Part shown: piece by piece, positions 4,583 to 64,000 of the stretch | How the letters are laid out: every line of letters begins with the position of its first letter | Numbering within the stretch: the first letter of the stretch is position 1 | Assembly (NCBI RefSeq): GCF_030408835.1 | Contig: NZ_CP047357.1 | Location: forward strand, 1,922,001 to 1,986,000 | Reading direction: 5' to 3' | DNA length: 64,000 nucleotides | Origin: Corynebacterium freneyi | GTDB lineage: Bacteria; Actinomycetota; Actinomycetes; Mycobacteriales; Mycobacteriaceae | Translations under genes and position numbers: made by a program | The notes under the pieces: generated by a model | Seen by the model: the letters and a program-made list of their open reading frames with translations, nothing else | Databases searched by the model: none | What the model was told of the DNA's origin: nothing

Positions 4583-4931
4583 GTGTGTCTGCCTTCCTGA
4601 TCCACACAATTCCTTAAGAACCCATCAGAGTTCCGTCTTTCCCAAGCAGGTTAGCCCATTCCTGTGAATTCTCCACACCGGACCGACCCCACGGGGTGTC
4701 ACCAAGTATAGACGGGCTGATAAAACGCTGAGAAGGGGCATGTTCACGGGGGTGGCACCCCACACCATGATTCGGATCACACGGTTGGGGGCGGCGTGTC
4801 GCCGCGTCGCGGGCCCGTGCTTGACGACGGTCCGTGCGGCATCTCACCCGGCGCGGGAATTCGTCCGCGCCCGACGGGAGACTATTGTCTTACCGGTCCC
4901 CCTCCCCCACGAAAGGTGTTCGCGTAAAGCC
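4583..4931. other. Divergent intergenic region between ctaC and asnB
   Basis: This 349-base region must hold the promoters of both genes. It contains one copy of the recurring 11-mer GCTTGACGACG (4819-4829). An open frame runs in from 4740 to join asnB, but it lacks homology to the enzyme and is not needed. No transcription factor site was recognised. Confidence 0.5.
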
Positions 4932-6857
4932 ATGTGCGGTCTCCTCGGAATTCTCACGGCCCGCTCCGATGCCGCGGAGCTCGTGCCCGCCATCGAGCGT
5001 GCGCTGCCCTGCATGCGCCACCGCGGCCCGGATGAAGCGGGCACGTGGAACGACGACGACGTCGTGTTCGGTTTCAACCGCCTGTCGATCATCGACCTGG
5101 AGCATTCGCACCAGCCGCTCGTGTGGGGCCCCGAAGACCAGCCGGACCGTTACGCCATGACGTTCAACGGCGAGATCTACAACTACGTGGAACTCCGCCG
5201 GGAGCTGTCCGACGCAGGCTATTCCTTCAACACCTCGGGCGACGGAGAGCCCATCGTGGTCGGCTTTCACCACTGGGGCGCCGACGTCGTCAAGCATCTG
5301 CGCGGCATGTTCGGCATCGCCATCTGGGACACGGTGGAGAAGAAGCTCTTCCTCGCCCGCGACCCCTTCGGCATCAAGCCGCTGTACTACGCCACCACCG
5401 ACCGCGGCACCGCCTTCGCATCGGAGAAGAAGACCATTCTCGAAATGGCCCCGGAGCTCGGCGTCGACGACAAGGACGTCGACAAGCGCGCCCTCGTCCA
5501 TTACATGGACCTGCAGTACGTGCCCGAGCCGGAATCGCTGCACACCGGCATCCGCCGCCTCGAATCCGGTTGCACCGCCACCGTCACCCCGGGCGGCGAA
5601 GTCGAGCAGAAGCGCTACTTCCACCCGAACTTCCCCATCCGCCCCGTCCCGAAGGGCGGCGAACAGGCCGTCTTCGACCGCATCGCCGAAGCGCTGGAGG
5701 ACTCCGTCGCCCAGCACATGCGCGCCGACGTCACCGTCGGGTCCTTCCTGTCGGGCGGCATCGACTCCACCGCCATCGCCACCCTGGCCAAGCGCCACAA
5801 TCCGAACCTGCTGACCTTCACCACCGGCTTCGAACGCAAGGGCTTCTCCGAAGTCGACGTCGCGGCGGAATCGGCGGCGGCCATCGGCGTGGAGCACATC
5901 GTCAAGGTGGTGTCTCCCGAGGAATTCGCCGCGGCGATCCCGAAGATCATCTGGTACCTCGACGACCCGGTGGCCGACCCGGCGCTGGTGCCGCTGTACT
6001 TCGTCGCCGCCGAGGCCCGCAAGCACGTCAAGGTCGTCCTGTCCGGCGAGGGCGCCGACGAGCTGTTCGGCGGCTACACCATTTACAAGGAGCCGCTGTC
6101 GCTCGCCCCGTTCGACCGTGTGCCCGGCCCGCTGAAGACCGGCCTGGCCAAGCTCGGCGACGCCCTGCCCGAGGGCATGCGCGGCAAGTCCCTGCTGCAG
6201 CGCGGCACCACCCCGCTGGAGGACCGCTACTACGGCAACGCCCGCTCCTTCAACTGGGAGCAGCTGAACGCCGTCCTGCCGTGGGCGAAGCGCGAGTGGG
6301 ACCACCGCGAGGTCACCGCGCCGATTTACGCCCGGTCCGAGGGCATGGATCCGGTCACCCGCATGCAGCACCTGGACCTGTTCACGTGGCTGCGCGGCGA
6401 CATCCTGGTCAAGGCCGACAAGATCACCATGGCCAACTCTCTGGAGCTGCGCGTGCCGTTCCTCGACCGGGAGGTGTTCAAGGTCGCCGAAACCCTGCCG
6501 GTGGATCTGCGGATCGCCGAGGGCACGACGAAGTACGCGTTGCGCAAGGCGATGGAGCAGATCGTGCCGGCGCATGTGCTCAACCGCCGCAAGTTGGGCT
6601 TCCCGGTGCCGATCCGCCATTGGCTCGCCGGCGACGAGCTGCGCGGGTGGGCGGAGGACGTCATCCGCGAGTCGCAGACCGACGCGTTGATCGACAAGGC
6701 GCAGGTGCTGCGGATGCTCGAGGAGCACCACCCCACCGAGCGCGATCACTCGCGTCGCCTGTGGACGATTCTTGCGTTCATGGTGTGGCACGGCATCTTC
6801 ATCGAGGACCGCATCAAGCCGGACATCGAGGAGCGCGACTACCCCGTGCACCTCTAG
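4932..6857 (+). CDS. asnB: Asparagine synthase (glutamine-hydrolysing), LtsA type
   Basis: A 641-residue glutamine-dependent amidotransferase. The ATG at 4932 is fixed by the need for Cys2 as N-terminal nucleophile (MCGLLGIL); a GAAAGG site lies upstream. The glutaminase domain occupies about residues 2-215 (NGEIYNY, SGDGEP, ARDPFGIKPLYY). The synthetase domain has the ATP pyrophosphatase loop SGGIDS at about residue 274. Length and position beside ctaCF match LtsA of C. glutamicum, where mutations cause lysozyme and temperature sensitivity, probably through amidation of cell-wall peptide. So its true product may be amidated diaminopimelate rather than asparagine. That last step is inference from the relative. 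Confidence 0.92.
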   Translation: MCGLLGILTARSDAAELVPAIERALPCMRHRGPDEAGTWNDDDVVFGFNRLSIIDLEHSHQPLVWGPEDQPDRYAMTFNGEIYNYVELRRELSDAGYSFNTSGDGEPIVVGFHHWGADVVKHLRGMFGIAIWDTVEKKLFLARDPFGIKPLYYATTDRGTAFASEKKTILEMAPELGVDDKDVDKRALVHYMDLQYVPEPESLHTGIRRLESGCTATVTPGGEVEQKRYFHPNFPIRPVPKGGEQAVFDRIAEALEDSVAQHMRADVTVGSFLSGGIDSTAIATLAKRHNPNLLTFTTGFERKGFSEVDVAAESAAAIGVEHIVKVVSPEEFAAAIPKIIWYLDDPVADPALVPLYFVAAEARKHVKVVLSGEGADELFGGYTIYKEPLSLAPFDRVPGPLKTGLAKLGDALPEGMRGKSLLQRGTTPLEDRYYGNARSFNWEQLNAVLPWAKREWDHREVTAPIYARSEGMDPVTRMQHLDLFTWLRGDILVKADKITMANSLELRVPFLDREVFKVAETLPVDLRIAEGTTKYALRKAMEQIVPAHVLNRRKLGFPVPIRHWLAGDELRGWAEDVIRESQTDALIDKAQVLRMLEEHHPTERDHSRRLWTILAFMVWHGIFIEDRIKPDIEERDYPVHL

Positions 6858-6942
6858 GGCCGCGCGGGGCGGGGCGCGGGGTTGGGGCCGCTCGAGGTTG
6901 GCCCGTGCGAGATCGACCCCGCCGGTTCCTTGCTTGACGACG

Positions 6943-7128
6943 CCCACGAATGTGCGCCAGGGGCCTCCCCGCGCACACTCGTCAAATGTGCAGCCCCGCC
7001 AACGCCCACGAATGTGCGCCAGGGGCCTTCCCGCGCACACTCGTCAGATGTGCAGCCCCGCCAACCCCCACGAATGTGCACCAGGGGCCTTCCCGCGCAC
7101 ACTCGTCAGATGTGCAGCCCCGTCGGCA
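6943..7128. repeat. Three 62-bp tandem repeats with an internal hairpin
   Basis: Units start at 6943, 7005 and 7067 and differ at only a few positions. Each contains CGAATGTGCGC followed about 10 bases later by GCGCACACTCG, which can pair as an 11-bp stem with one G-U. Each also has a second ATGTGC segment, so every unit folds. No protein product is indicated. Confidence 0.9.
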
Positions 7129-8651: not shown

Positions 8652-9299
8652 GTGCGGACGCTCGTGCTGGGCGGGGCCCGTTCCGGCAAGTCCGCGTGGG
8701 CGGAGTCGCTTTTCGACGCCGATGTTTCCGGTGGGGCGACCTCGCGGCGAGTTCCGGTCGATTACGTGGCCACGGCGCGTCCGTGGCCGGGTGCCGACGG
8801 GTTCGATTCCGATTTTTCCGCCCGCATCGCCGGCCACCGGGAGCGTCGGCCGGCGCATTGGCGCACGGTGGACGACGTCGATGCCGTGGAGGCGTTGCGA
8901 CGTCCGTCGGCGCCTTTCGTTTTGGTCGATGACGTGGGCACCTGGCTGACGAACGTGTTCGACCGGGAGCAGCTGTGGGGCTCCCCGCGCGGTTCGGCGG
9001 CGCCGTGGACCGATGAGCTGGTCGCCGCCGTGCGCGATTGGGGCGGACCCGGAAGCGGGGCAGGCGAGATGCGCTCCCCGACTGCCGCGGACCCTGCGGC
9101 CGATGGCGGGGAGGCGGGCGTCGTAAAGCAAGAGCCGCACCTGGTGATCGTGACTCCGGAGGTGGGGATGGGCGTCATTCCCGAACATCGGTCCGGGCGG
9201 CTGTTCCGCGATGAAGTCGGGGCGCTCAACGGGCGTTTGGCCGACGTGTGCGACCGGGTGGTGCTCGTCGTCGCGGGGCTGCCGCTGACGCTGAAGTAG
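8652..9299 (+). CDS. cobU: Adenosylcobinamide kinase / adenosylcobinamide-phosphate guanylyltransferase
   Basis: A 215-residue bifunctional enzyme that phosphorylates adenosylcobinamide and adds GMP, giving adenosylcobinamide-GDP, the substrate of CobS. The P-loop GGARSGKS is at the N-terminus. The family ending ...EVGMGVIPEHRSGRLFRDEVGALNGRLA is intact except that the usual VPE...GR spacing follows a polar insertion of about 30 residues (near 125-155), which makes the protein longer than typical. A TTG six bases earlier, with better spacing to a GAGG site, is an alternative start. Part of cobU-cobT-cobS. Confidence 0.9.
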   Translation: MRTLVLGGARSGKSAWAESLFDADVSGGATSRRVPVDYVATARPWPGADGFDSDFSARIAGHRERRPAHWRTVDDVDAVEALRRPSAPFVLVDDVGTWLTNVFDREQLWGSPRGSAAPWTDELVAAVRDWGGPGSGAGEMRSPTAADPAADGGEAGVVKQEPHLVIVTPEVGMGVIPEHRSGRLFRDEVGALNGRLADVCDRVVLVVAGLPLTLK

Positions 9300-9398: not shown

Positions 9399-10535
9399 AT
9401 GACCAACAATCGCTTCGGTACCGTCGTCGCCCCCGATGAGCATGTCGAGCAGCTCGCCCGCGAGCGCCATGCGCAGTTGACCAAGCCCACGGGTGCCCTC
9501 GGCCGCCTCGAGGACCTGGGAATCTGGGTTTCGGCATGTCAGGGCCAGTGCCCGCCGAAGCAGTTGGATGATTGCCGCGTCGTCGTCTTCGCCGGCGACC
9601 ACGGGGTGTCGGCGCATGGGGTGTCGGCGTACCCGACCGAGGTGTCCATTCAGATGCACGCCAACATCAACGCCGGCGGTGCGGGCGTCAACGCCGTCGC
9701 GGGGGTCGCCGGGGCATCGGTGACGTCGGTGGACGTGTCGCTGGACCATGACGCCGACGGGCCTTTCCGCGTGCGCCGTTCGTGCGGGTCCATCGACCGC
9801 GAGGACGCGATGACGCAGGAGGAGTGCGACCGGGCCATCGAGGTGGGCAAGAAGCTTGCCGACGACGCGGTCGACGAAGGCGCCGATCTGCTCATCGCCG
9901 GCGACCTGGGCATCGGCAACACCACGCCGGCGGCCGTGCTCATCGGCGCGGCGACGGGTTCGGAGCCGGTCACGGTCGTCGGCCGCGGCACCGGCATCGA
10001 CGACGAGGGCTGGAAGCGCAAGACCGCCGCCGTGCGCGACGCGATGTTCCGGGTTCGCCGGCTGCGCAACGATCCCGTCGAGGTGCTGCGCCGCGTCTCC
10101 TCCCCCGACCTCACGGCCATGGCCGCGTTTTTGGCGCAGGCGGCGGTGCGGCGCACGCCGGTGATCCTCGATGGGGTGGTCACGGCGTCGGCGGCGTTGA
10201 TGGCCGATCAGCTCGCCCCGGGCGCCCGCGCGTGGTGGGTGGCCGGCCACCGCAGCGCCGAGCCGGCGCATTCGATTGCGCTGAAGCATCTTGGCCTGGA
10301 GCCGCTGCTGGAGTACGGCATGCGGCTCGGCGAAGGTTCGGGGGCGGTTGCGGCGCTGCCGGTCCTCAAGTCGGCCGTGGCGGTGTTGTCGGAGATGGCG
10401 ACGTTTGGCGACGCCGGGGTGTCCAACAAGGACGAGGCCCCGAAGGCGGCCAGTGCAGCCGATGTTCCGGCGCCGCCGGAGGAGGATCGTCCGGGGCATC
10501 GCGATGGCGGCGAGCAGCCGTCTCAGCGGGACTGA
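9399..10535 (+). CDS. cobT: Nicotinate-nucleotide-dimethylbenzimidazole phosphoribosyltransferase
   Basis: A 378-residue cytoplasmic enzyme that makes alpha-ribazole phosphate, the lower ligand of cobalamin. Visible family motifs are [16 protein letters not shown], the phosphate-binding [12 protein letters not shown] (usually GEMGIGNTT) and the C-terminal RLGEGSGA with the likely catalytic Glu312. The last 25 residues are a disordered acidic/proline tail. A TAATCT hexamer ends eight bases before the ATG, so this gene may have its own leaderless promoter inside the cob cluster. The stop is nine bases before cobS. Confidence 0.95.
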
Positions 10536-10543: not shown

Positions 10544-11614
10544 GTGTCGGGTAAGGCGGGGCCGTCCGAGGGCGCGTCCCTCGAGGGCGACCGTTCACAG
10601 CACGGCAACGCGTTGGCGGAGGGCGTCGGCACGGCGTTTTCCTGGTTGACCGTCGTGCCCGTGCGCGACGCGAAGGTGTTCGATCGCATCACCGGCCGGC
10701 GCGCGTTGACCGCGGCTCCCCTGACGGGGCTCGTGCCGGGGTTGGGTGCGGTGCTGGTGGCGTGGGCGGTGACCGGCTTGGCGTGGCTGTTCGGGGGCGG
10801 TGCGACAGGGGTGTTTCCTTCCTGGGTCCGGGGGCTTGACGACGCCGGCCCGTCCTCCGCTTCGCCCTCCGTGTTGGGCCCGGCCGGCGATCCCGCGGGG
10901 GCGATCGGATTCGGGGCGGACGCGGGATCGGCGGAGGCTGCGGCGAAGGCGGCGGCTGTCGCGGCGGCGACGTCACCGTTGACTGCGGTGCTCGCGGGCG
11001 TGCTGGCGGTGTGCGCGGCCGAGCTGTTGACGCGGGCGATGCACGTCGATGGCCTCGCCGACGTCGCCGATGCCCTGGGGTCCTACCGCGATCCGGAGGG
11101 CGCGCGGGAGATCCTGCGTGCCTCCGACACCGGGCCGATGGGGTCGGCTGCGGTGGCGCTCACGCTGGTCGCGCAGGCTGCGGCGATGTCGATCCTGGTC
11201 CACGGTTTCGCCACGGCGTTGTTTCCGGCGCCGTGGATTCTCGGCGCGTCGGTCGACCCGGTGCGGGTGGGCGCGGCTGCGGCGGTGATCGTGTTGCCGT
11301 TCATCATCGGGCGTGCGGTGGCGACGACCGGGTGCCACCGCAGCCTGCCCCCGATGTCGCCGACGGGGTTCGGTGGGCTCGTCGCGGCGACGCAGTCGAC
11401 GTGGGTGCTCGTCGCGTGGTGGGTGCCGCTGATGATCGTCGCCGGGGTCCTCGCCGGCGTCGGCGGGGTGCTGGCCTGCATCGCCGCGGTGGTCTTCGCC
11501 TTCGGTTTCGGTCGGTTGGCGGTCCGGCGGCTCGGCGGCGTCAACGGCGATGTGCTGGGCGCGATGGTGCAGTTGACCACGCTCATCGTCGCCGTGTTGC
11601 TGGCGCTGAACTGA
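10544..11614 (+). CDS. cobS: Adenosylcobinamide-GDP ribazoletransferase (cobalamin synthase)
   Basis: A 356-residue polytopic membrane protein that joins adenosylcobinamide-GDP to alpha-ribazole, the last step of cobalamin nucleotide-loop assembly. The family signature is clear: HVDGLADVADALGSY, then RDPEGAREILRASDTGPMG. At least six hydrophobic segments follow or precede it. A loop of about 40 Ala/Gly/Ser-rich residues near 85-130 makes it longer than the usual 250-300. The GTG start at 10544 follows cobT closely. Only late steps (U, T, S) are present here, fitting corrinoid salvage rather than full synthesis. Confidence 0.93.
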   Translation: MSGKAGPSEGASLEGDRSQHGNALAEGVGTAFSWLTVVPVRDAKVFDRITGRRALTAAPLTGLVPGLGAVLVAWAVTGLAWLFGGGATGVFPSWVRGLDDAGPSSASPSVLGPAGDPAGAIGFGADAGSAEAAAKAAAVAAATSPLTAVLAGVLAVCAAELLTRAMHVDGLADVADALGSYRDPEGAREILRASDTGPMGSAAVALTLVAQAAAMSILVHGFATALFPAPWILGASVDPVRVGAAAAVIVLPFIIGRAVATTGCHRSLPPMSPTGFGGLVAATQSTWVLVAWWVPLMIVAGVLAGVGGVLACIAAVVFAFGFGRLAVRRLGGVNGDVLGAMVQLTTLIVAVLLALN

Positions 11615-12080: not shown

Positions 12081-12125
12081 GTCGTCGTGAAGCCCGGGAC
12101 GGACCTAGTTTGCGTCTGCGCGGTT

Positions 12126-13289: not shown

Positions 13290-13409
13290 GCCCCGGCGCG
13301 GGTTCCGGGTCGGGCGGTACGGTGGGGGCCATTGACCGGGATCGGTGAGCGTGCTTTGCGACGTCGGCCGATTCCCTTCCGATTGATCCGTCATTGAAGG
13401 AGCGTTTGC

Positions 13410-17487: not shown

Positions 17488-18273
17488 ATGACGAACACGG
17501 CCCGCACGCAGGAATCCCGACCCGCCGACGCAGCCGACGCCGACGCGGCCCACGGCACGCCGGAACCGGTGACGCACCCCGCGTCGTCGATTCGGGCGTC
17601 GGACGAGCCGATCGAGGTCGTGGATCTGGGCACGGTCGATTACGTGGACACGTGGCGCAGGCAGGCCGATGCCGCCGCGGCGCGTGCGGCCGGCGAGATC
17701 GGCGATCAGCTGTGGGCGCTCGAGCACCCGAGCACGTACACGGCGGGCAAGCGCACGCAGCCGGAGGACCGCCCGGACAATGGGCTGCCGGTCGTCGACG
17801 TCGACCGCGGCGGCCGCATCACGTGGCATGGGCCGGGGCAGCTGGTGTGCTACCCCATCGTGAAGTTGGCGGAGCCGCTGGACGTGGTCGATTACGTGCG
17901 TCGCATCGAGGAGGCCGTCATCCACGTCGTCCGCGGGTTGGGGCTTGACGACGCCGGCCGGGTCGAGGGCCGCTCCGGAGTGTGGCTTCCGGCGGGCGTC
18001 GTCGGGGGCGAGTTGAAGCCGTCGCGGAAGGTCGCGGCGATCGGCATCCGCGTCACCCACGGGGTGACCATGCATGGCGTGTCATTGAATTGCGACAACA
18101 CGTTGGACTACTACGGGCACATCGTTCCGTGCGGCATCGCCGACGCCGGAGTGACCACGTTGAGCGAGGAATTGGGCCGCGACGTCACCGTGGCGGACCT
18201 GCGGGAACCTTTGGTTTCGGCTATCGCCGCCGCTCTGGATGGCGACCTTCGCGTCGCCGATCACGATCTGTAG
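17488..18273 (+). CDS. lipB: Lipoyl(octanoyl) transferase
   Basis: A 261-residue enzyme that moves octanoate from acyl carrier protein to the lysine of lipoyl domains, here presumably the three in the neighbouring E2. Family motifs include [27 protein letters not shown] and the catalytic pair Lys181 ([10 protein letters not shown]) and Cys215 (IVPCGI). The first 40 residues are an alanine/aspartate-rich extension. The ATG at 17488 has no ribosome site but lies seven bases after TAGACT, fitting a leaderless transcript. lipA follows nine bases after the stop. Confidence 0.95.
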
Positions 18274-20240: not shown

Positions 20241-20273
20241 GGGCCGGGTCGTCGCTTGCCGACGGCCCGGCCC
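20241..20273 (+). terminator. Hairpin downstream of the DUF4191 gene
   Basis: A 13-bp stem, GGGCCGGGTCGTC with GACGGCCCGGCCC (one G-U), has a 7-base loop. There is no U tract. Confidence 0.45.
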
Positions 20274-20438: not shown

Positions 20439-22067
20439 ATGGGCGTCGTGCAAATACTCGTTGAAAACCAGTTGCTGGCGTTGCTCGTCATCATGGGCCT
20501 CGGTCTGGCCCTGGGGCAGATCCGCATTTTCGGCTTCAAGCTCGGCATCGCCGCCGTGCTGTTCGTCGGTCTGGGTTTGGCCACGTTCGAGCCCGGCATT
20601 CAGATTCCGCCGTTGATCTACATCGTCGGGCTGGCTTTGTTCGTGTACACGATCGGCCTGGAGTCCGGCCCGGAGTTCTTTGCCACGTTGCGGTCAACGG
20701 GCATCCGCCACAATGCGTTCGGCGCCGTCATTTTGGTGGTCGTCGCCATCGAGGCGTTCGTGCTGATCTCGTTGTTCCCGGTGGACAACGTCGAGGGTGC
20801 GGGCACGTTCACCGGTGCGTTGACCAATACGCCGGCGCTGGCCGCGGTGGTCGATGCGCTGCCGAGCATCATTTCGGATGATGCGGAGCTGCAGAGCAAG
20901 TTGGAGATGCCGGTCATCGGTTATTCCCTGGCGTATCCCATCGGCGTGCTGGCGGTCATCGCGTCGATCGGCATCGTGGCCAAGGTGTTCCGGGTGGACC
21001 ATGATCGCGAGGCCCTGGAGGCCGGCGTGGCGGCGCTGCCGTTGCATACGCGCCGGGTGGAGGTCACCAAGGATGATTTGCCGTCGGTGACGGACATGCC
21101 GGTGGTGTTCGGCCTGGACATCATCATTTCGCGCATCGAGCACAAGGGGCACCTGTACGTGCCGGCGGAGGGCGACACCCTGGTCGCCGGTGACGTGGTG
21201 TCGGTCGTCGGCACGGAGGACGTCATCGAGGCGGCGGCGGAGCGGATCGGCACGTTGTTGCCGGGTGATCCGACCGATGATGGTCGCCTCGATTTCCGCC
21301 GCATTTTCGTGTCGTCGGGCAAGGTGTGCGGTGTGCCGTTGGAGCAGCTGCACACGAAGATGGACGGCATGGTCATCACCCGCGTTCGTCGCGGTGACCT
21401 GGACATGGTGGCTTCCCCCCAGATGAAGCTGGAGTTGGGTGACCGCGTGCGCGTGGTGGCCACGCCGGATCGCATCGGCGATGCCACGAAGTTCTTCGGC
21501 GATTCGTACAAGAAGCTTTCCGACGTCAACCTGTTGCCCATGATCCTGGGCCTGTTGCTGGGCGTTCTGGTGGGCATGATTCCGGTGCCGATTCCGGGTG
21601 GCGTTACCCTGACGCTGGGTTCGGCCGGCGGTCCGCTGGTCGTCGCCTTGGTTTTGGGCGCCCTGGGTCGCACGGGCCCGTTGGTGTGGCCGATCCCCTA
21701 CTCGGCGAATCTGGCTTTCCGGCAGGTCGGTTTGGCGCTGTTCCTGGCCGGCATCGGCACCACGGCCGGCGCGGGGTTCAAGGAGGCCCTGGGCGATCCG
21801 TCGTCGCTGACGGTGCTGGGTCTGGCGGCGATCATCGCGCTCAGCTCGGCGCTGCTGACGCTGATCATCGGGCACAAGGTCCTGAAGATCCCGTTCGGCC
21901 AGACCGCCGGCATCTTGGCCGGTCTGCAAACGCACCCGGCCGTGTTGACCTACGTCAACGACCAGGCGAAGAACGAGTTGCCGGCGATGGGCTACACCAC
22001 GGTGTATCCGATGGCGATGATCATGAAGATCATCCTGGCGCAGATCCTCGTCGTCGTCCTCGTGTAG
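20439..22067 (+). CDS. AspT/YidE-type transporter with RCK_C domains
   Basis: A 542-residue membrane protein of the aspartate-alanine exchanger (YidE/YbjL) family. Two membrane halves of about five segments each, at about residues 5-185 and 365-540, are each duplicates of one fold. Between them lie two RCK_C/TrkA-C domains, at about 205-285 (VVFGLDIIISRIEHKGHLYVP) and 290-365. The two domains usually bind a small ligand and gate transport. Substrate is unknown; dicarboxylates or amino acids are usual. An ortholog lies in the same place in C. glutamicum as far as I recall. It stands alone, with hairpins on both sides. Confidence 0.9.
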   Translation: MGVVQILVENQLLALLVIMGLGLALGQIRIFGFKLGIAAVLFVGLGLATFEPGIQIPPLIYIVGLALFVYTIGLESGPEFFATLRSTGIRHNAFGAVILVVVAIEAFVLISLFPVDNVEGAGTFTGALTNTPALAAVVDALPSIISDDAELQSKLEMPVIGYSLAYPIGVLAVIASIGIVAKVFRVDHDREALEAGVAALPLHTRRVEVTKDDLPSVTDMPVVFGLDIIISRIEHKGHLYVPAEGDTLVAGDVVSVVGTEDVIEAAAERIGTLLPGDPTDDGRLDFRRIFVSSGKVCGVPLEQLHTKMDGMVITRVRRGDLDMVASPQMKLELGDRVRVVATPDRIGDATKFFGDSYKKLSDVNLLPMILGLLLGVLVGMIPVPIPGGVTLTLGSAGGPLVVALVLGALGRTGPLVWPIPYSANLAFRQVGLALFLAGIGTTAGAGFKEALGDPSSLTVLGLAAIIALSSALLTLIIGHKVLKIPFGQTAGILAGLQTHPAVLTYVNDQAKNELPAMGYTTVYPMAMIMKIILAQILVVVLV

Positions 22068-22800: not shown

Positions 22801-23010
22801 GGGTTCACAGTGTAGCGGCCCGCGGCTTTGCGACGAATCCAGGTCGACTCGTCGTAAAGCGACGGCAACCCGGGCCACCGAAACGGCGTGCCCCGACTGC
22901 GGCCCGGACCCACGCGAATCGTGTGGCGCGCGTTACGTCAGACGGGTGCAAAAGACCAGGGTCCTTTTCGATAAAGTGGACTTCGTCATCCGTCACGTTA
23001 GGAGTCGCAC

Positions 23011-24447: not shown

Positions 24448-24520
24448 ACCGGTCCCGCGGTTCACGGTCCCGCCGCAGTGGTGACCCGGTGATTTTCCGC
24501 TTCTTCGCTTTGCGACGATC

Positions 24521-24553: not shown

Positions 24554-24613
24554 TTTCGTCGTCAAGCGGCACCGTCGGATCTATGCTCGGAGACGAGAGC
24601 CGACGTTGACGGG

Positions 24614-45281: not shown

Positions 45282-45287
45282 GACCAC

Positions 45288-45357: not shown

Positions 45358-46134
45358 TCAGCCCTCGTCCGTTTCCGGCGAAATCAGGTATTCCACGGTC
45401 GTCTCCGGCGCCTCGAGGAACTCCCGCATGTCCGCCACCGCGCCGCAATCACGCCAAGCGGGCACGTCGATGCCGTCTTCGCCCAGCTCGAAAATCGTCG
45501 CCCCGGGGATGGCCAGCAGGATCGGCGAGTGCGTGGCGATGATGAACTGCGCCCCGCCCTTCGCCAGCTCGTGGATTTGCGCCAGCAGCGCCATCTGCCG
45601 CATCGGCGACAGCCCCGACTCCGGCTCGTCGAGCAGGTACAGCCCATCGGAGAACCTGTGCGTCACCACCGCCCACACCGATTCCCCGTGGGACAGGTGG
45701 TGCAATTCATCCGGTCCGTACGTCGGCCCACGCGGCGGCTTCTTCGCGATCTCCTCGAGCATCCGCAGGTGCCCTTCGGCCCGCAGGAAAAACGCATCGG
45801 GGGGATTGGCCCGCCGCACCAGACCCATTGCACGGTGCAGCGGCGAGGCGTCGTCGAGCCCCGAGTAGCGCATGTGCCGCGAGCCGCCGTCGGCATTGCA
45901 CCCGGCGAGCACCGCGATCGCCTCCAGCAGAGTCGACTTGCCCATCCCGTTGTCCCCGGCGATGAGTGTCACGGGCGTGGGCAGGGGAAGTTCCCGCAGG
46001 TCACGAAGATGCTTCACGACGGGCAGCCCCAACACCCACCCATCGCCGCCATCGGATTCGGCGTCCCCGAACACGGCGTCGACGTCGGTGAGGCGCAACG
46101 CCTTGACGTAGGGCGCACGGTCCGGGTGTTTCAT
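45358..46134 (-). CDS. AAA/ABC-type ATPase with RecF-like fold
   Basis: A 258-residue soluble ATPase. Walker A is GDNGMGKST near residue 55, an ABC-type signature HLSHGESVW lies near 155, and Walker B is LYLLDEPESGLS near 175. The switch histidine is in FIIATHSPILL. No membrane or coiled-coil region separates them, so it is a compact stand-alone ATPase. Such proteins occur as housekeeping orphans or as parts of two-gene defence systems, but no partner nuclease is seen. It starts 43 bases from the divergent MFS gene. Confidence 0.85.
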   Translation of the reverse strand: MKHPDRAPYVKALRLTDVDAVFGDAESDGGDGWVLGLPVVKHLRDLRELPLPTPVTLIAGDNGMGKSTLLEAIAVLAGCNADGGSRHMRYSGLDDASPLHRAMGLVRRANPPDAFFLRAEGHLRMLEEIAKKPPRGPTYGPDELHHLSHGESVWAVVTHRFSDGLYLLDEPESGLSPMRQMALLAQIHELAKGGAQFIIATHSPILLAIPGATIFELGEDGIDVPAWRDCGAVADMREFLEAPETTVEYLISPETDEG

Positions 46135-49746: not shown

Positions 49747-49808
49747 CGTCGTCAAGCAGTTCGCTGCCGCGACGCATTGCCGGTGCCGGGACTTTTTGCT
49801 TGACGACG
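49747..49808. repeat. Inverted pair of GCTTGACGACG motifs between glsA and the FMN reductase
   Basis: CGTCGTCAAGC at 49747-49757 and GCTTGACGACG at 49798-49808 face each other with 40 bases between. They could pair as an 11-bp stem. It may act as a weak terminator of glsA. Confidence 0.7.
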
Positions 49809-50517: not shown

Positions 50518-53022
50518 TCAGAACAGCGGCGGCTGGGTGGGCACGCCCGGACCGCTGCCGGAATCCGGGCGGCGCAGGGGATCTTCGATGTACGTCGCAT
50601 CGGCGGCCCCGGCCCCGCCCCCGGAGTCGGACGCGGACTCTGCGGCGCCCTCGGCGCCCGGCCCGGCTCCTCCCCCGGACGCGGCACCGGATTCCCGCTG
50701 ATCCGAGTCATCGCCCGTCAGCGACGCCGACGGGCGCAGTCCCGGAAGGTCGAACAACGGCGGTTCGATCACGCCGTTTTCACCCACGACGCCGTCATCG
50801 ACGCCGATGACGTCGAAAAGCGCGTTCTCCTGCGCTGACTGCCGCAACGCGTCGCCACCGCCGCGGCCCGCATCGGCCTCGTCGATCGCGTCCGCCTCGG
50901 CATCCCGGCTCCGGTCGGCGTCGACGCCATCGGTCTCGTCATCGTCGGTGAACGGCTCGGCGGCGGGCTCGTCGGGAAGCAACGGCTCCAGCTCCAGGCC
51001 CTCGGCGACCCCGCGCAGCTCAATGCGCAGCATCCGCAGCCACGCGGACCCCGCGGTGACGTCGCGGGCCGCCGCCACAATCGCCTTGGCGTCGCCGTCG
51101 TACTCGTCGAGCGCGTCGGCCAGCGACTCTTCGGTGAACACCCACTCCGACGTCGCGCCGCACTTCCGACGGTGCGCCATGGAATCCATCGTCACCGCGA
51201 GATCATGGCCGGGCACGCCGCGGACCACGGCGACCAACTGCGGACGCCCCACGCGCAGCGAATTCGGGTACAACCGCACCTGCGCCCGCCGCTGCACCGG
51301 CACGAAATCCCCGGCCTCGGCGGCGATCAACTCCACCGCTTCGTCAACGTGCGGATCCTGCCCCGACAGCCAGGCGTGGCCCAGCGCCGCCATGACCGCA
51401 CGCACGGGCATCCCGGCGGCACCGTCGACGAGCAGCCCCAGCGCGCGCATGCCCTCCATGACCCGGTGGAGCACCCCGCCCCACATGTCATCCAGACCGT
51501 CGTACAGGGCGCCGCACGTCCAGTTCAGGTGCGAGTCGATGCAGCACGGGTACCACATCATGCCGTCGTCGAGGTCCGCGGCGAGCGCGACCGCTTCACG
51601 ACGAACCCGCTTGGCGACGTCGGCCAGCACCTCGGCAGGGGGCATCCAACTTTCCTGCGCGTTCTCGCCGACCCAATGGTCGGGGCCGCGGAGCCACCCG
51701 GCGACCAGCCAGGCCCAGCGGCGCGAGGCGTCGGCGGAGAACCACCTCTGCGCCGATCGCGCCGTCGGCTGGCCCGTGACCGGGTCCATGAAACCGGCGT
51801 CGACGAGCATGCCCACCACCTCGAAGACCACGGACACATCCGCCCCGACGGACGCGGCGAAATCCGACGCGGCGACGGAACCGGGGAAGTCGTGGAGGGC
51901 ACCCGCCCCCAGGTAACCGCCGTCCTCCCACAACTGCATGACGGCGGTGCCCACCGCCACGGCCGACGTCGCCGCTTCGACGTACGCCTCCGGCGGCGTC
52001 CACGCCGTACGCGGCTCCTTCGGGTGCGGCGTGGGCAGGGGCAACCGGTCCATCTTCAACGCCAGGGCCACCGGCGAAATCATCGATGCGTTGAGCACGA
52101 AACCCGGCCGACAATCGAATGCGCCCGCGGCGTCGACCGGCTGCGCGTGTTCGCCGCCCGTGGTGTCGTCGGCCGCTTCGAACGTCACCGCCAGCAGATG
52201 CTCGACCGCCCATTCGACGGCGGCGGCGCGGCGTCCGCCCCACTCGCGGGCGTCGAGGTAGATGGCCTCGCCGGCGAACAGCAGAAGCGACTTCTTGATG
52301 GCATCCGGGGCGGTGTCCACCAGCGCGCGGACATGGCGCGGCGAACACAGGAACGTGCGCAGCCGGGCGAGCAACTCGACACCCGACGGAGCGCCCGGGG
52401 CGACCGGTTCATCGTCGACGGGGCTGATGAGCTCCGCCGCCCCCTTCGCGGCTGCTGCGGCGCGGTGCTCGGCGGCGGAGATCAACCCGAGGTTCTCCAT
52501 CTTGCGAAGCAGCTCGGAGCGGTTGTTGAAGTCGAACACGTACGCCACGGGCGTCGCCATCGTCGGGTCCTGGACCAGGACGTCCGAGATGTGCGGGGGC
52601 ACGTTCCACACGCCCTCCGGTTCCTGCCACACCAGACCCAGATCCTCGGCGCGGCCCATCAACGCGGTGACGTCGGCCCGGGCGGCGGGGAGTCGGACGG
52701 TCGACGGCGGATGGTCGCCGTCGTGGGGCATCGAGTCCGCCTCGGAACCCCACACCGCGACGGCGGTGATGTCGTCGACGGCTGCGGAGTCCTCCAGAAC
52801 ATGCACCAGCTTCACCGCGGCCAGCACATCCGGCGTCGCGGCCGACACGGCGGTCAGGGCGGCCTGCCGCGTCATCAGCAGTTCGGCGGTTTCGGCCCGC
52901 GACACCGGGGTGGGACTGCCCGGGCAGGCCACGCGCAGGAGCCGACGCAGCTCCGCCTCGCCCAGACGTCCGACGTGTTCGCCGAAGTCGGGGCTGGCTG
53001 CGTAATCGGCCCTGCTCTCCAT
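50518..53022 (-). CDS. Large helicase-associated-like protein (Rv0862c type)
   Basis: An 834-residue cytoplasmic protein. The N-terminal part has the helical pattern seen in actinobacterial proteins annotated as helicase-associated: LGEAELRRLLRVACPGSP, RAETAELLMTRQAALTAVSA. The region FVPVQRRAQVRLYPNSLRV near 600 and the following EESLADALDEYDGD fit the same family. No Walker motifs are present, so it is not itself a helicase. The last 150 residues are disordered and Gly/Asp/Ser-rich. The ATG at 53022 lies seven bases after CATAAT, which suggests a leaderless start; 53031 is an alternative. Family call is tentative. Confidence 0.6.
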   Translation of the reverse strand: MESRADYAASPDFGEHVGRLGEAELRRLLRVACPGSPTPVSRAETAELLMTRQAALTAVSAATPDVLAAVKLVHVLEDSAAVDDITAVAVWGSEADSMPHDGDHPPSTVRLPAARADVTALMGRAEDLGLVWQEPEGVWNVPPHISDVLVQDPTMATPVAYVFDFNNRSELLRKMENLGLISAAEHRAAAAAKGAAELISPVDDEPVAPGAPSGVELLARLRTFLCSPRHVRALVDTAPDAIKKSLLLFAGEAIYLDAREWGGRRAAAVEWAVEHLLAVTFEAADDTTGGEHAQPVDAAGAFDCRPGFVLNASMISPVALALKMDRLPLPTPHPKEPRTAWTPPEAYVEAATSAVAVGTAVMQLWEDGGYLGAGALHDFPGSVAASDFAASVGADVSVVFEVVGMLVDAGFMDPVTGQPTARSAQRWFSADASRRWAWLVAGWLRGPDHWVGENAQESWMPPAEVLADVAKRVRREAVALAADLDDGMMWYPCCIDSHLNWTCGALYDGLDDMWGGVLHRVMEGMRALGLLVDGAAGMPVRAVMAALGHAWLSGQDPHVDEAVELIAAEAGDFVPVQRRAQVRLYPNSLRVGRPQLVAVVRGVPGHDLAVTMDSMAHRRKCGATSEWVFTEESLADALDEYDGDAKAIVAAARDVTAGSAWLRMLRIELRGVAEGLELEPLLPDEPAAEPFTDDDETDGVDADRSRDAEADAIDEADAGRGGGDALRQSAQENALFDVIGVDDGVVGENGVIEPPLFDLPGLRPSASLTGDDSDQRESGAASGGGAGPGAEGAAESASDSGGGAGAADATYIEDPLRRPDSGSGPGVPTQPPLF

Positions 53023-53767: not shown

Positions 53768-56700
53768 CTAGTCGTGCGCCGGATTCTCCTCTCCCCAGAA
53801 GACGCGGTCGACCACGCGGCGGGAGTGCCGGGTGACGCGGAGATAGTTCTCCATGAACCCGGTGTTGTCGTCCGGATCCCAGCCCGCGGCACCGGCGACC
53901 TGCGCCAACTGCGGGCCCGGCTGGGGCAGCTCGTCCGTTCGCTTGCCGCGGGTGAGCACCAGGGCGTTGCGCGCCTTCGTCGCCGTCAACCACGCCGTGC
54001 GCAACGTCTCGGCATCATCGGCGGACAGGATCTCGTCGTCGGCAAGCGCCCGCAGACACTGCAACGTCGACGTGTTGTGCAGCCCCGGCACCTCATGGGC
54101 GTGCATGAAGGTGAGCAACTGCACCGTCCACTCGATGTCCGTCAACGCACCCGACCCCAACTTCGTGTGCGTGCGCCGATTCGCCCCTCGCGGCAGACGC
54201 TCGTTGTCCACCCGGGCCTTCATGCGGCGCACGTCGCGCACGACCTGCTCGGACGCACCGCCCTCCGGATACCGGAACCGGTCGATGCCGTGGAGGAACC
54301 TCTCCCCCAAATCCTTGTCGCCGGCGATCCACGTCGCACGCAACAACGCCTGGATCTCCCACGTCTCGCCCCACCGCTCGTAATAGGCCAGGTAAGAATC
54401 CAACGTGCGCACCGGCGGCCCCGAACGCCCCTCCGGACGCAAATCGAGATCCACCTCCAACGGCGGGTCCTGACTCGGCTTGGCCAACCGACGGCGCAGG
54501 GCATCGCAGATGCCGATCGCCCACCGCACCGCGTCACTGTCATCCGCCACCGGTTCCCCGTCGTCGCCGACGGCCGGTTCACACACGAACATCACGTCGG
54601 CGTCCGACCCGTACCCCAGCTCGCCGCCGCCGAGACGGCCCATGCCGATGACCGAAACGATCGCCGGCACCGGCTCATCCGGATGCTGCGCACACCAACC
54701 GCGGATCTCGGCGGCCAGCGCCGCCTCGAGCACGTTGTCCCACACCAGCGACAACGACGTGCACACGGACTCGACGTCCATGAACCCCAACAGGTCGGCC
54801 GACGCAACGCGCGCCAACTCAGCGCGCCGCAACGCCCGGGCCACGCCGATGGCCCGATCCGGGTCCGTATGCCGATTCGCGGTGGCCACCAACGACCGGC
54901 CCACCGTCGCCGGATCGGTGTCCAACAGCTTCGGCCCGGCCGCACCATCGCCGAAAAGCTTGATCGTGTCCGGCGACGACAACAACAGACCGGACACGTA
55001 CGGCGACGTTCCCAAAATGTGCATCAACCGCTCGCCGACCACGCCCTCGTCGCGAAGCATGCGCAGGAACCACGTCTTGTCCACCAGCACATCGGAAAGC
55101 TTGCGGTAGTTGAGCAGACCGGCGTCCGGCTCCGCCGTGTCCGACAGCCACTCCATCAACGTCGGCAACAACATCGCCTGAATGCGCGCCTTACGCGAGG
55201 TCCCCGACGCCAACGCCGACAAATGGTCGTACGCCCGATCCGGATACAGGTAGCCCAGCGCCGCCAACTGACGCTTCGCCGCATCTGCCGACAACTGCAT
55301 CGTGCCGGTGTCCTGCTCCACCACGGAATTCAGCAGCGGACGGAAGAACAACTTGTTGTGGAGCGTCCGAATCTGCCGCCCCGTCGCCCGAATCCGCTTC
55401 GCCAACGCATCGGCGGAATTCTCCGACCCGGCCGGGGTGACGCCGGCGGCCCGCCCCAACCAACGGCGGGCGGAAACGTCCTCCTCCGGCGGCAACGTGT
55501 GCGTCCGCCGCATCTTCTGCAACTGCAGGCGATGCTCCAACAGACGCATGAACTCGTAGCACTCGACCAGGACGCGCCCGTCCTCGCGGCCGACGTAGCC
55601 GGCCTCCACCAGAGCCTCCAGAGCCTCCACGGTGGGCAGGACCCGCAGCGACTCGTCGTAACGCCCATGAACCAACTGCAACAGTTGCACCGCGAACTCC
55701 ACGTCGCGCAAGCCGCCGCGACCCAACTTCAGCTCGCGGTTCTTCAACTCGTCGGGGACGTTCTCGATGACGCGATCGCGCATCGCCTGCACGTCCTCCA
55801 CGAAGGAATCACGCTGCGACGCCGTCCACACCAACGGCGAAAGCCCCTCGACGTACTCGCGGCCCAAATCCAAGTCGCCCGTCATCGGCCGGGCCTTGAG
55901 CTGCGCCTGGAACTCCCACGTCTGCGCCCACCGCTTGTAGTAGGCCCGATGCGAGTCCAACGTGCGCACCAACGCCCCCGACTTGCCCTCCGGGCGCAGG
56001 GCGGCGTCGACCTCGAAGAAACAGCGGCACGCCACCCGAATGAACTCCGACGCCAGGCGCGTGGCCCGGGCATCGGCCGGTTCGGCGACGAAGATGACAT
56101 CGACGTCGGAAATGTAATTGAGCTCCCGGGCACCGCACTTGCCCATCGCCAACACCGCCAGACGCGTCGACACCGGGGCATCCGGGTACGTCGTGGCCAC
56201 CGCCACCGACAGGGCCGCCGTCAGCGCGGCATCCGCCAAATCCGACAGGGCCCCCGTGACGCGGGTGAACGGGATCGGCGGCTGCCCCGGACGACGCGGC
56301 CCACGCGGATACGTGCCCGCCAAGTCCGCCGCGGCCACCCGCATGATCAGGTTGCGGTACGTCCGCTTCATGGCGACGTCCGCCTCGCGCCCGGTCAGCC
56401 CCGCCCGGTACAGGCCGGCGTCCTCCAACTCCGGCGACGACGCCGTCGGCTCCCGGTACTCCAGCTCCGCGGCCTCCTTCACCGACTCCTCGTCCGTGCG
56501 CACCGGGGTCTCCGGCGTGGCCTCGACGGAGGTGAGCATGTCGCGGAACATGTCCGCCCGGGTCGGCAGATCCGCCAGCAACAGCGACCACGTCGTCGGA
56601 TTCGCCACCATGTGGTCGCCCAACATCGACGAAGCGCCCAGCAGGGCGAACACCCGGGTGCGCATGAGCACCTGCTGGCGCATCGCCGCATCCAGCGCCG

Positions 56701-59415: not shown

Positions 59416-61488
59416 ATGAACGATTCCGGCAGCACCCCCGACACGACCGTCTCCGGCAGCACGAAGGAGCGGACCGCACCGTCCGAAAACCTCGAGATCG
59501 AGGTGAAGTTCTCCGCGCCCGAGCAGGCGGTGGCCCCCGGGTTCGATTTCGTGCCCGGCGTCGCCGACGTCGAGGTGGACGTCCGCGAGATGTCTGCGAC
59601 GTATCTCGACACCGAGGATCTGCGCCTGACGCGGGCGAAGCGCACGCTGCGCCGCCGGTTGGGCGGCCCGGACGAGGGCTGGCACCTGAAGACCCCGGCG
59701 GAGGCCGGCCGCATGGAGTACGGCGCCGCCCTCGACGAGGGGTTGGCCGAGGGCGAGGGCGCCGAGGCGGTCTACGTGGTTCCGGATGCGCTGCTCGCCC
59801 CGGTGCGGTCCATCGTCCGCGATCATCCGCTGCGCCCGATCGCACGGGTCGACAACGTGCGCCACGTGTCCACGCTGAAAAACGCCGCCGGCGAGCCGAT
59901 CGCCGAGTTCTGCGACGACCATGTCACGGCGGTGTCGTTGCTTCCGGGCGGCGAGGAGACGTCGTGGCGCGAGTGGGAGATCGAGCTGATCGGCGACATC
60001 GCCGGCACGCCGGAGGGCGCGGAGCTGTTGGAGCGTCTGGGCGCGGTGCTGGGCATCGCTGGCGCGACGCCGTCGGAGAGCCCGTCGAAGTTGGCCACGG
60101 CGCTGGGTTCATCGATGGACGCGGCGCCGCTGCCTCCGTCACCGGCGGATCTGCCGGAGGGCACGCCGGGTCGCGCGGTGGTCGATGCGCTGGCGGCGAA
60201 TGTGGCGAAGATGGTCGAGTGGGATCCGAAGGTTCGCCGCGACGAGTGGGATTCGGTGCACCAGATGCGTGTGGCCACCCGTGAGCTGCGCAGTCACATG
60301 CAGACGTTCCACGGCATTCTCGTCGGCGATCAGTTGCCGCACATGGAGTCGGAGCTGAAGCTGCTGGCGGGTGTGCTGGGCGTGGCGCGCGACGCGGAGG
60401 TGGTGGCGGAGCGGTTCGAGAATCAGCTCGGGCGCGACGAGGCCGACGTCATCGACGACGAGATGCGCGAGGAGCTCGTCGCCGACATTCGCCGCGATTA
60501 CGACCGGGCGCATCGTCGCGTCGTCGCCGCGCTGGATTCGAGCCGGTACCTGACCCTTCTCGATCAGCTCGACGAGCTGCTGGCCGATCCGCCGGTCAAC
60601 CCCAATGCCGCGGAGGACGCCGAGAAGGCGGAGCAGGAAGCCGCCGAGCGCAAGGCCGCGGAGCAGTCCGGGGTCGAGTCGGCCGACGGTGCCGCTACTT
60701 CGCTTGACGACGCCGACGTCGCGGCCGAGGAGCGTGAGGACGACGATGAGCTGTCGTCGGACGAGACCGCGCGACGCATCGTCGACGAGTCGGATGCCGC
60801 CGACGCCGCGTTCGGCTCCGGCGAGTCCGGCGACGAGGCCGGTGCGTCGGAAGAGGAGCCGTCGGAAAGCGACGACGAGCCCGAGGCCCGCGACGCCGCG
60901 ACGGAGCAGGTCGCCGAGCAGGCCCCGGAGAAGAAGCCGGAGAAGGCAACCGAGAAGACGCCGGAGCAGCTGCGCGCCGAGACCAACGCGGTGCTGGCGA
61001 TTCATCTGTCGAAGGCGTTCGCGAAGTTCGAGAAGCGCCACCGCAAGGCCGTCGAATGCCGCGATGATCGGTCCATCCCGGTCGCCGAGCGCGAGGAGCA
61101 TTTCCACGACGTGCGCAAGGCCGCCAAGAAGCTGCGTTACTCCGCGGAGGCCGCGCAGTCGGCGGGCATGCCCACCAAGAAGCTGTACGCAGCGTGCAAG
61201 ACGCTGCAGTCGTCGCTGGGCGATTTCCAGGACACCTGCACCGCCCGCCAAGTCCTGCTGCAGAAGGCCCGCCGCGCCCACGCGCACGGTCAGGACACCT
61301 TCGGGTACGGCGTGCTGTACCAGATCGAGCGCATGGACGGCCTGAAGGCGCTGGAGGCCTACGACGACGACGTCGAGGACGTGCTCAAGGCGTACGACAA
61401 GCTCGAATCGAAGATGAAGAAGGCTCGCGAGAAGGCCGCGAAGGAAGCGGCGAAGGACGCCGAGAAAAAGGCCAAGCGCAAGAAGTAG
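59416..61488 (+). CDS. CYTH-CHAD domain protein with a large acidic insertion
   Basis: A 690-residue protein with an N-terminal CYTH domain (residues about 18-215) carrying the ExExK motif LEIEVKF, which binds triphosphate and metal ions. A C-terminal CHAD domain (about 255-670) has HQMRVATRELRSHMQTF and HDVRKAAKKLRYSAEAA, helices with conserved His/Arg/Lys for polyphosphate. The CHAD domain is split by about 125 residues (392-515) of low-complexity Glu/Asp/Ala/Ser. The fused pair is known to associate with polyphosphate granules. The ATG at 59416 lies seven bases after TAGGAT with GGAGGG between. A basic tail ends the protein. Confidence 0.93.
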   Translation: MNDSGSTPDTTVSGSTKERTAPSENLEIEVKFSAPEQAVAPGFDFVPGVADVEVDVREMSATYLDTEDLRLTRAKRTLRRRLGGPDEGWHLKTPAEAGRMEYGAALDEGLAEGEGAEAVYVVPDALLAPVRSIVRDHPLRPIARVDNVRHVSTLKNAAGEPIAEFCDDHVTAVSLLPGGEETSWREWEIELIGDIAGTPEGAELLERLGAVLGIAGATPSESPSKLATALGSSMDAAPLPPSPADLPEGTPGRAVVDALAANVAKMVEWDPKVRRDEWDSVHQMRVATRELRSHMQTFHGILVGDQLPHMESELKLLAGVLGVARDAEVVAERFENQLGRDEADVIDDEMREELVADIRRDYDRAHRRVVAALDSSRYLTLLDQLDELLADPPVNPNAAEDAEKAEQEAAERKAAEQSGVESADGAATSLDDADVAAEEREDDDELSSDETARRIVDESDAADAAFGSGESGDEAGASEEEPSESDDEPEARDAATEQVAEQAPEKKPEKATEKTPEQLRAETNAVLAIHLSKAFAKFEKRHRKAVECRDDRSIPVAEREEHFHDVRKAAKKLRYSAEAAQSAGMPTKKLYAACKTLQSSLGDFQDTCTARQVLLQKARRAHAHGQDTFGYGVLYQIERMDGLKALEAYDDDVEDVLKAYDKLESKMKKAREKAAKEAAKDAEKKAKRKK

Positions 61489-61539: not shown

Positions 61540-61566
61540 ATCTACGCGCCCGCCGGAGCACGGCCC

Positions 61567-63093: not shown

Positions 63094-63116
63094 GCCGGGG
63101 CGCTTTCATGCCGCCC

Positions 63117-63222
63117 TAATCGGCAGGCCCGGCGCGCTGCTCTGATCCGCCGGCCGGGCCCGCTGTCCTAATCTGCGGGCCAGGCGCACCCCCCCCTAAT
63201 CCGCCGGCCAGGCGAACAGCAC
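63117..63222. repeat. Four 26-28-bp tandem repeats at the 3' end of the RNB gene
   Basis: TAATCCGCCGGCCAGGCG-type units start at 63117, 63143, 63169 and 63197. The last includes the stop codon and final codons (WPAD-stop) of the minus-strand RNB gene; the others lie downstream of it. Confidence 0.88.
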
Positions 63223-64000
63223 CTCCGCCTCCACGGGATTCGACGGATCGGCGGCGACCAGGCTGACCCGCTGGGCCGTGCCCTCGTCCGGCACGCCCGC
63301 GTCGGTCGTCCCCCGGCACTTGGCGAACACCGGCGGCTCGAACACGAACACCTCGACCTCCTCGCCACGGTCGTGGAGCACCGCGGAGTCGAAGGCATGG
63401 CCCACCCACGGTTCCAACACCACCGCCTCGGTCAGATCCAGGCACGCCCGGTCCACCCGCGACGCCAGCTGCCCCGACGACGCCATCACCGAAATCGCCT
63501 CGTCGACCCCGGCCGTCACCCACCCGGGGACCTCCACCTCCTGCGTGTCGCCGCGCCGGTGAGCCGCGATGGCCAGACAATACTCCAGCCCGAACCGGTC
63601 GATCAGCCGTCGCAACGGGGCCGTCACATGCGCGTACGGGCCACCCACGCCCGAATGCACCGGCACGTCGGACGGTGCGGGGGCCGAACCGTCGTCAAGC
63701 GTCTCCAACCGCTCGTACCCCGAGCCGCGCAACAGGCGCGACGCATCCTTCATCACCGCCATCCCGCGGGTCGAATCCGCGTCGACGCCCGCCAAAAACG
63801 CGCTGACCTCGGCAATGCCCGCATCATCGGGCAGCTCGTACCCCAACGCGCGCGCCGCCACCCGAAACTCCGCCAGCGCAGCCTCCCCCGCCGGCCGCAA
63901 CGTCCGCAACACCCCGACGCCGGCCTCCGCCATCATCTGACCGGCGACCATCCCCGCCAGCAGCGAGATCTCCGAATTGAAATCCATCACCGGCGGCCGC
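63196..64000 (-). CDS. RNB-family (RNase II/R-like) ribonuclease, 3' part
   Basis: The last 267 codons of a gene whose start lies beyond the window edge; the frame is open to base 64000. It matches the C-terminal half of the RNB catalytic domain: NSEISLLAGMVAGQMM, then YAHVTAPLRRLIDRFGLEY with the family arginines. The enzyme would degrade RNA from the 3' end. The end is followed closely by tandem repeats derived from its own last codons. Confidence 0.88.
   Translation of the reverse strand, partial: RPPVMDFNSEISLLAGMVAGQMMAEAGVGVLRTLRPAGEAALAEFRVAARALGYELPDDAGIAEVSAFLAGVDADSTRGMAVMKDASRLLRGSGYERLETLDDGSAPAPSDVPVHSGVGGPYAHVTAPLRRLIDRFGLEYCLAIAAHRRGDTQEVEVPGWVTAGVDEAISVMASSGQLASRVDRACLDLTEAVVLEPWVGHAFDSAVLHDRGEEVEVFVFEPPVFAKCRGTTDAGVPDEGTAQRVSLVAADPSNPVEAEVLFAWPAD

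Follow-up and report, generated by a model that had tools for sequence, protein, structure and literature searches.

Sequence-specific DNA uptake in natural transformation is, to our knowledge, confined to two Gram-negative families. The DNA uptake sequences (DUS) of the Neisseriaceae show strand symmetry and form inverted pairs near gene ends, the uptake signal sequences (USS) of the Pasteurellaceae combine a conserved core with a T-rich element, and bacteria of the genus Corynebacterium, the subject of this study, possess a mycolic-acid envelope. Frye et al. describe DUS as occurring in eight dialects with a conserved core and put the number of copies in meningococcus and gonococcus at about 1,900; five Neisseriaceae genomes carry no obvious DUS (PMC3630211). 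Transformation of Micrococcus luteus is reported to require tad genes (PMC4322843). Here we describe a short signal centered on the 11-mer GCTTGACGACG, which recurs in a 64,000-nucleotide stretch of the Corynebacterium freneyi chromosome (NZ_CP047357.1, positions 1,922,001 to 1,986,000; hereafter the window), and which we interpret, with a probability of roughly 0.78, as a DNA uptake sequence that differs in dialect between species and whose putative receptor would belong to a Tad/ComEA/ComEC machine.

Results

Form and copy number of the signal

All 14 exact copies of the 11-mer that a first-pass annotation had reported in the window are present, one start being off by one (31506, not 31507), and its estimate that chance would supply well under one copy agrees with dinucleotide shuffles, which gave a mean of 0.13 and a maximum of 1. 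Throughout the genome, a single contig of 2.88 Mb, the exact word occurs 247 times in forward and 240 times in reverse orientation (487 in total), against 7 + 6 = 13 occurrences of the same word read backwards. In a 464-kb sample composed of 20 scattered 20-kb stretches and the window, the wider consensus around 94 exact copies is TTGCTTGACGACGNCC, with little conservation farther out; a larger repeat unit, of the repetitive extragenic palindrome (REP) or miniature inverted-repeat transposable element (MITE) type, was ruled out because the flanks are conserved for no more than about 5 bases.

An unbiased word count revealed a second form, GCTTTGCGACG, and the listing of all single changes showed that the middle two bases can vary freely; summed over all 16 spacers, GCTTNNCGACG has 302 copies in the 464-kb sample (among them GA 94, TA 38, TG 37, TT 24, and TC 22). 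Single changes in CGACG or in the first G or C occur there at about chance level, and the two T's tolerate some change (GCGTGACGACG, 21 copies vs. 3.2 expected; GCTCGACGACG, 24 vs. 7.2 expected). The signal is bipartite and non-palindromic, TTGCTT-NN-CGACG-NCC, and GCTTGACGACG is one spacer variant, the commonest, of GCTT-NN-CGACG (GCTTNNCGACG). Counted over the whole genome, GCTTNNCGACG reaches 1,720 copies, divided 861/859 between the strands (reversed control, 119), and 49 of its sites lie within the window. The C. xerosis genome contains 1,901 copies (control, 92), and the range across six signal-rich genomes is 1,432 to 1,964; four species without any dialect have 28 to 61 copies (controls, 36 to 76).

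Distribution and dialects in the genus Corynebacterium

The genus set comprised 201 Corynebacterium genomes including the source genome, of which 195 have a completeness of 90% or more and a contamination of 5% or less. The main form, TGCTTNNCGACG, divides them into 140 genomes with 70 to 839 copies and 61 with at most 37, none falling in between; the source genome has 734 copies (control, 14). Counts of the exact 11-mer range from 0 to 488 within the genus. The first-pass annotation had supposed a dispersed signal, and this is confirmed genome-wide and across much of the genus. No other sampled genus of the order is comparably enriched: among 293 genomes of 75 other genera, the maximum for the 11-mer is 33 copies, in a 10.5-Mb genome; TGCTTNNCGAYG, counted in 159 genomes of other genera, mostly lies near its control and exceeds it by roughly five- to sevenfold at the highest ratios, where some 30 to 50 copies are present; and 76 loci (1.52 Mb) outside Corynebacterium contain 25 copies of GCTTNNCGACG, vs. 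988 at the density of the source genome.

Species without the main form were searched for other forms in 80- to 120-kb samples by gapped-word and expectation-maximisation searches, and the forms obtained were then counted in the 201 genomes. The CGATG dialect, AGCTTNNCGATG, is carried by 11 genomes at 202 to 397 copies each, and 10 of these are negative for the main form; next come G073, borderline at 70 copies, and G036 at 54, and the source genome has 24. The dialect composed of a T-tract and CGACGCC, TTTNNNNCGACGCC, numbers 53 to 244 copies in eight genomes (controls, 5 to 14), none of which is positive for either other form, the next highest count being 34 and that of the source genome 22. 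The lineages thus share the core CGAYG and differ in the half upstream of it. One genome, G143, bears two dialects (CGATG form, 397 copies; CGACG form, 108 copies), possibly a transition or mixed uptake. The favored spacer is apparently species-specific, AT being frequent among the first places listed in G137, G149, and G180, and GA in the source genome.

In a seeded motif search, the T-tract species G033, G015, and G066 scored 217, 161, and 152, compared with 63 to 99 for composition-simulated sequence, and scores close to noise were obtained for G148 (104), G094 (125; the genome count of 271 confirms the dialect), and G152 (124). In other genera, where short contigs left two of the four outgroup samples largely missing, the search strayed to unrelated codon-periodic or AT-rich patterns, which scored between 73 and 302. 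Since these outgroup scores are as high as or above those of real dialects, the dialects are defined here by whole-genome counts and not by scores. Motif searches of samples from G014, G163, and G039, which lack the main form, yielded nothing convincing, and that of the G152 sample yielded a weak candidate only.

Maintenance of the signal at the DNA level

The codon CTT makes up 3.0% of the 10,990 leucine codons in predicted genes. In the context xxG-CTn-nnC-GAC-Gxx, which becomes the signal if the codon is CTT, its share rises to 45% (99 of 218), whereas the equivalent context minus the two flanking G's contains it in 11 of 367 cases (Fisher P ~1e-37). Because the excess is found only in the signal-making context, it is the DNA word and not the peptide that is favored: the signal is maintained at the DNA level, and a rare leucine codon is forced inside genes.

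A 100-kb region was aligned with C. xerosis (53,772 alignable bases, 83.4% identical). It holds 78 sites, 44 of which are not alignable and were excluded; 20 of the remaining 34 are fully conserved, compared with 28.4% of same-shape random windows (P 2e-4) and with 9 of 30 occurrences, in total, of nine related control words. The nine specified bases reach an identity of 0.892, compared with 0.706 for the spacer and 0.719 for the flanks, and this alignment indicates that the signal is kept while the spacer drifts.

The signal is rare in phages. In three phages with C. xerosis as the recorded host (68% GC, 131,526 bp), two of which (StAB and Dina) share the genus Samwavirus and hence do not count as three independent cases, the exact 11-mer occurs once, vs. 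23.8 at host density, TGCTTNNCGACG five times vs. 34.5, and GCTTNNCGACG 11 times vs. 92.6 (5.3 by the phage Markov model). Phage BFK20 of a C. glutamicum-group host contains no 11-mer, no TGCTTNNCGACG, and one GCTTNNCGACG.

Placement of the sites and alternative functions

A total of 298 of the 302 sites could be assigned entirely to one side of the gene calls, 121 outside them (vs. 63 expected) and 177 inside; the calls were made with our own simple caller, which left 21% of the DNA uncalled, so all intergenic figures are approximate. The intergenic enrichment that the first-pass annotation had noted is borne out; it had counted seven of the 14 window copies between genes, and eight of them fall outside these rough calls, at least the copy at 10834, in a long uncalled stretch, being uncertain. 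When sites are counted in 20-kb stretches, the numbers vary less than a random spread would give (variance/mean 0.48, P 0.017); local gaps are approximately exponential, and the sampled counts are not concentrated in any one chromosomal region.

Such a genome-wide, fairly even spread, together with the intergenic enrichment and the rarity in the three phages, could also arise if the word were bound by a nucleoid protein or another chromosome-organising protein that requires many dispersed sites. We consider this explanation improbable. The dialects differ by species, and none of the three is clear in 43 of the 201 genomes (borderline G073 included), which would be odd for a housekeeping protein; regional clustering is lacking in the sampled 20-kb counts, with local gaps near exponential; and the word is non-palindromic, though a monomer could bind it.

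Signals of the Chi type and the FtsK-orienting polar sequences (KOPS) are strongly polar with respect to replication. The corynebacterial word resembles them in being short, non-palindromic, overrepresented, and free of any larger surrounding element, but it lacks a leading-strand orientation bias. With chromosome arms assigned roughly from the GC skew of the samples, the strands are represented 66/60 in the left arm and 97/93 in the right (P 0.82), and the first 43.6% of the chromosome holds 100 of the 247 forward 11-mers (P 0.34). A Chi-like role in recombination, which the first-pass annotation had entertained, or a KOPS-like role in segregation is accordingly very unlikely.

Site density in gaps of at most 800 bp is 2.34 per kb between convergent gene calls, 1.78 between divergent, and 1.29 between tandem ones, vs. 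0.48 in coding DNA. Neighboring sites at most 120 bp apart lie on opposite strands in 24 cases and on the same strand in five (484 kb; P 5e-4), and in 19 of the 24 opposite-strand pairs the right halves face each other. These pairs, some of them short-looped, and the maximum between convergent genes would suit a component of a transcription terminator or a short repeat of the REP/MITE kind. Most sites are, however, outside close pairs, more than half of those assigned are inside gene calls, where a rare codon is used to build the signal, and conservation stops about 5 bases beyond the core, all of which makes such an origin highly improbable. The first-pass annotation had also named a restriction/methylation target. 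That the word is recognized by a restriction-modification system, or by some other system that marks the chromosome as self, is suggested by its bipartite form with a free spacer and by its rarity in the three phages but is scarcely credible, as nine specified bases around a 2-base spacer are unlike type I sites, which as known have longer spacers, as restriction sites are normally avoided in genomes and not amplified, and as the motif is maintained through codon choice.

Competence and Tad genes

In the source genome, comEA, encoding SLBB and helix-hairpin-helix domains, directly precedes comEC. The Tad locus encodes TadA, two TadB/TadC-type frames, an Flp pilin (DUF4244), TadE (Rv3655c type), an Rv3654c-type TadE-like protein, and a TadZ/Ssd-like protein (146.1 bits, just below the curated cut-off of 154.45). 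Among named records, its TadA is best matched by a record titled C. halotolerans 307_CHAL (88%) and by C. xerosis NBRC 16721 (82%).

Presence of ComEC was considered as an on/off switch for the signal and rejected, a family match being found in 201 of 201 genus genomes (in two pieces in G001, G112, and G114, all signal-bearing). Presence of the Flp pilin was rejected likewise, since DUF4244 is found in 198 of 201 genomes and missing in G071, G073, and the 53%-complete G119. Two TadB/C (PF00482) matches were obtained in 32 of 33 genomes bearing any dialect vs. 8 of 17 signal-free genomes (Fisher P 8e-5), a difference on which we do not rely, as the 50 genomes compared, of the 201, were hand-chosen and their relatedness was ignored; in G163, which has a single PF00482 match, both genes were present when the locus was read, and the difference may reflect divergence rather than loss. 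The Tad proteins of G039 (75% GC; locus L062) are nearer to those of the source genome than are those of most signal-bearing species compared, and this genome has no trace of the signal.

Sites and other repeats in the window

The sites of the window are collected in Table 1. A second repeat family, CAAACCACGGGGTC, forms tight clusters with four to nine copies of a 12-base core in both orientations, at window positions 40546-40697 (between gene calls) and at genome positions 1018693-1018938 (L016) and 1740525-1741193 (L021); it is unrelated to the signal and is possibly a multi-copy protein-binding region. A 62-bp unit is repeated in three tandem copies (96% match) at window positions 6940-7122, adjoining the signal copy at 6932, and a word of this unit recurs in groups elsewhere (L014, L016, and L027).

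Table 1. Copies of the signal in the window, with positions counted from its first nucleotide.
Feature	Spacer	Position	Strand	Remark
Exact 11-mer GCTTGACGACG		4819..4829	+	signal copy
Exact 11-mer		5285..5295	-	inside gene call
Exact 11-mer		6932..6942	+	between gene calls
Exact 11-mer		10834..10844	+	long stretch without gene call
Exact 11-mer		17943..17953	+	inside gene call
Exact 11-mer		24557..24567	-	paired with opposite-strand copy at 24507
Exact 11-mer		26662..26672	+	inside gene call
Exact 11-mer		31506..31516	+	previously given as 31507
Exact 11-mer		38972..38982	-	between gene calls
Exact 11-mer		42721..42731	+	inside gene call
Exact 11-mer		49747..49757	-	opposite-strand pair with 49798
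Exact 11-mer		49798..49808	+	T-run upstream, CCC downstream; pair with 49747
Exact 11-mer		60702..60712	+	inside gene call
Exact 11-mer		63690..63700	-	inside gene call
GCTTNNCGACG copy	GC	2098..2108	-	
GCTTNNCGACG copy	GT	5477..5487	-	
GCTTNNCGACG copy	TT	8708..8718	+	
GCTTNNCGACG copy	TA	9119..9129	-	
GCTTNNCGACG copy	GC	9854..9864	+	
GCTTNNCGACG copy	CA	12083..12093	-	
GCTTNNCGACG copy	TG	13353..13363	+	
GCTTNNCGACG copy	GC	20254..20264	+	
GCTTNNCGACG copy	TC	21515..21525	+	
GCTTNNCGACG copy	TG	22825..22835	+	inverted-repeat arm with 22850
GCTTNNCGACG copy	TA	22850..22860	-	inverted-repeat arm with 22825
GCTTNNCGACG copy	TG	24507..24517	+	pair with 24557
GCTTNNCGACG copy	CG	26499..26509	-	
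GCTTNNCGACG copy	TG	31660..31670	-	
GCTTNNCGACG copy	TA	32941..32951	-	
GCTTNNCGACG copy	TT	34310..34320	+	
GCTTNNCGACG copy	TC	34671..34681	+	
GCTTNNCGACG copy	TC	35256..35266	-	
GCTTNNCGACG copy	CT	36142..36152	-	
GCTTNNCGACG copy	TC	36532..36542	-	
GCTTNNCGACG copy	CT	36592..36602	-	
GCTTNNCGACG copy	CT	37813..37823	+	
GCTTNNCGACG copy	CA	38204..38214	+	
GCTTNNCGACG copy	CT	41431..41441	+	
GCTTNNCGACG copy	TC	42414..42424	+	
GCTTNNCGACG copy	TT	43688..43698	-	
GCTTNNCGACG copy	CA	46011..46021	+	
GCTTNNCGACG copy	CC	47131..47141	+	
GCTTNNCGACG copy	TT	50811..50821	-	
GCTTNNCGACG copy	CC	50970..50980	-	
GCTTNNCGACG copy	CA	51593..51603	+	
GCTTNNCGACG copy	GG	51609..51619	+	
GCTTNNCGACG copy	GC	54037..54047	-	
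GCTTNNCGACG copy	CG	55048..55058	-	
GCTTNNCGACG copy	TC	60860..60870	-	

Discussion

Taken together, the number of copies, their equal split between the strands, the preference for intergenic DNA and for inverted pairs, the dialects built on an invariant core, and the scarcity of the word in the phages agree with what is known of uptake sequences; of the three analogies drawn in the first-pass annotation, that with DUS fits best. In the mechanism that we propose, a surface receptor of the natural-transformation machine would bind the signal, most likely a part of the Tad/Flp pilus or the ComEA step feeding ComEC, and this binding would lead to preferential uptake of DNA from the same or a close species. 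Biased uptake and recombination may then spread the tag and keep it over the chromosome, and lineages may drift into dialects (GCTTNNCGACG, GCTTNNCGATG, and the T-tract with CGACGCC) that would limit gene exchange.

Several observations weigh against this interpretation. The 43 genomes without a clear dialect belong here as well. Family matches to ComEC, which also occur in non-competent controls such as E. coli and alone are no proof of competence, and the Flp pilin are near-universal in the genus, and the presence of the machinery therefore cannot by itself account for the distribution of the signal among species. The minor pilins of 20 Tad loci have no ComP-like positively charged tail and differ in no clear way between signal-bearing and signal-free species, although the receptor may lie elsewhere. 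Rarity in phages would be equally compatible with other chromosome-specific signals. Among the papers listed by searches of the open-access literature on corynebacterial transformation and competence, none, judged by title and the start of the abstract, dealt with a transformable corynebacterium. The analysis establishes the signal and its dialects, whereas binding of the signal, a promoting effect on uptake, and the identity of the protein that recognizes it are inferences from the features set out above.

We consider it likely that corynebacteria independently evolved sequence-specific uptake, with a bipartite tag present in most of the genus in at least three dialects, a receptor in the Tad pilus or the mycomembrane that is unrelated to ComP, and resulting species barriers to gene exchange across commensals and industrial bacteria; no report of a corynebacterial uptake sequence was found in the open-access literature, judged in the same way, and of the papers containing the sequence letters, those listed (20 of 158) looked by title like chance matches. 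If the signal is an uptake sequence, self-recognising natural transformation would be widespread in Corynebacterium, and uptake sequences would extend beyond the two Gram-negative families. Corynebacterial competence would become directly testable by adding the right dialect to DNA, the dialects would predict which species exchange genes, a new receptor would have to be looked for, and any poor uptake of untagged DNA would have a possible reason.

Among known systems, the corynebacterial signal is like the USS of the Pasteurellaceae in the T-tract dialect of eight Corynebacterium species, but it is unrelated to it in sequence and phylum, and its T-tract lies upstream of CGACGCC. It shares with M. 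luteus, in which transformation depends on Flp/Tad, actinobacterial Tad genes along with comEA and comEC; the M. luteus paper reports two tad clusters, whereas one locus was examined in our source genome, and the terms "uptake sequence" and "corynebacteri" are absent from its main text (PMC4322843). The likeness to the DUS of the Neisseriaceae comprises a similar copy number, dialects with a constant core, and some relatives without the signal (PMC3630211). Unlike DUS, the corynebacterial signal is bipartite, with a free 2-base spacer, resides in an actinobacterial host with the Tad/Flp pilus as the candidate machine, and is accompanied by no ComP-like receptor among the minor pilins of the 20 Tad loci.

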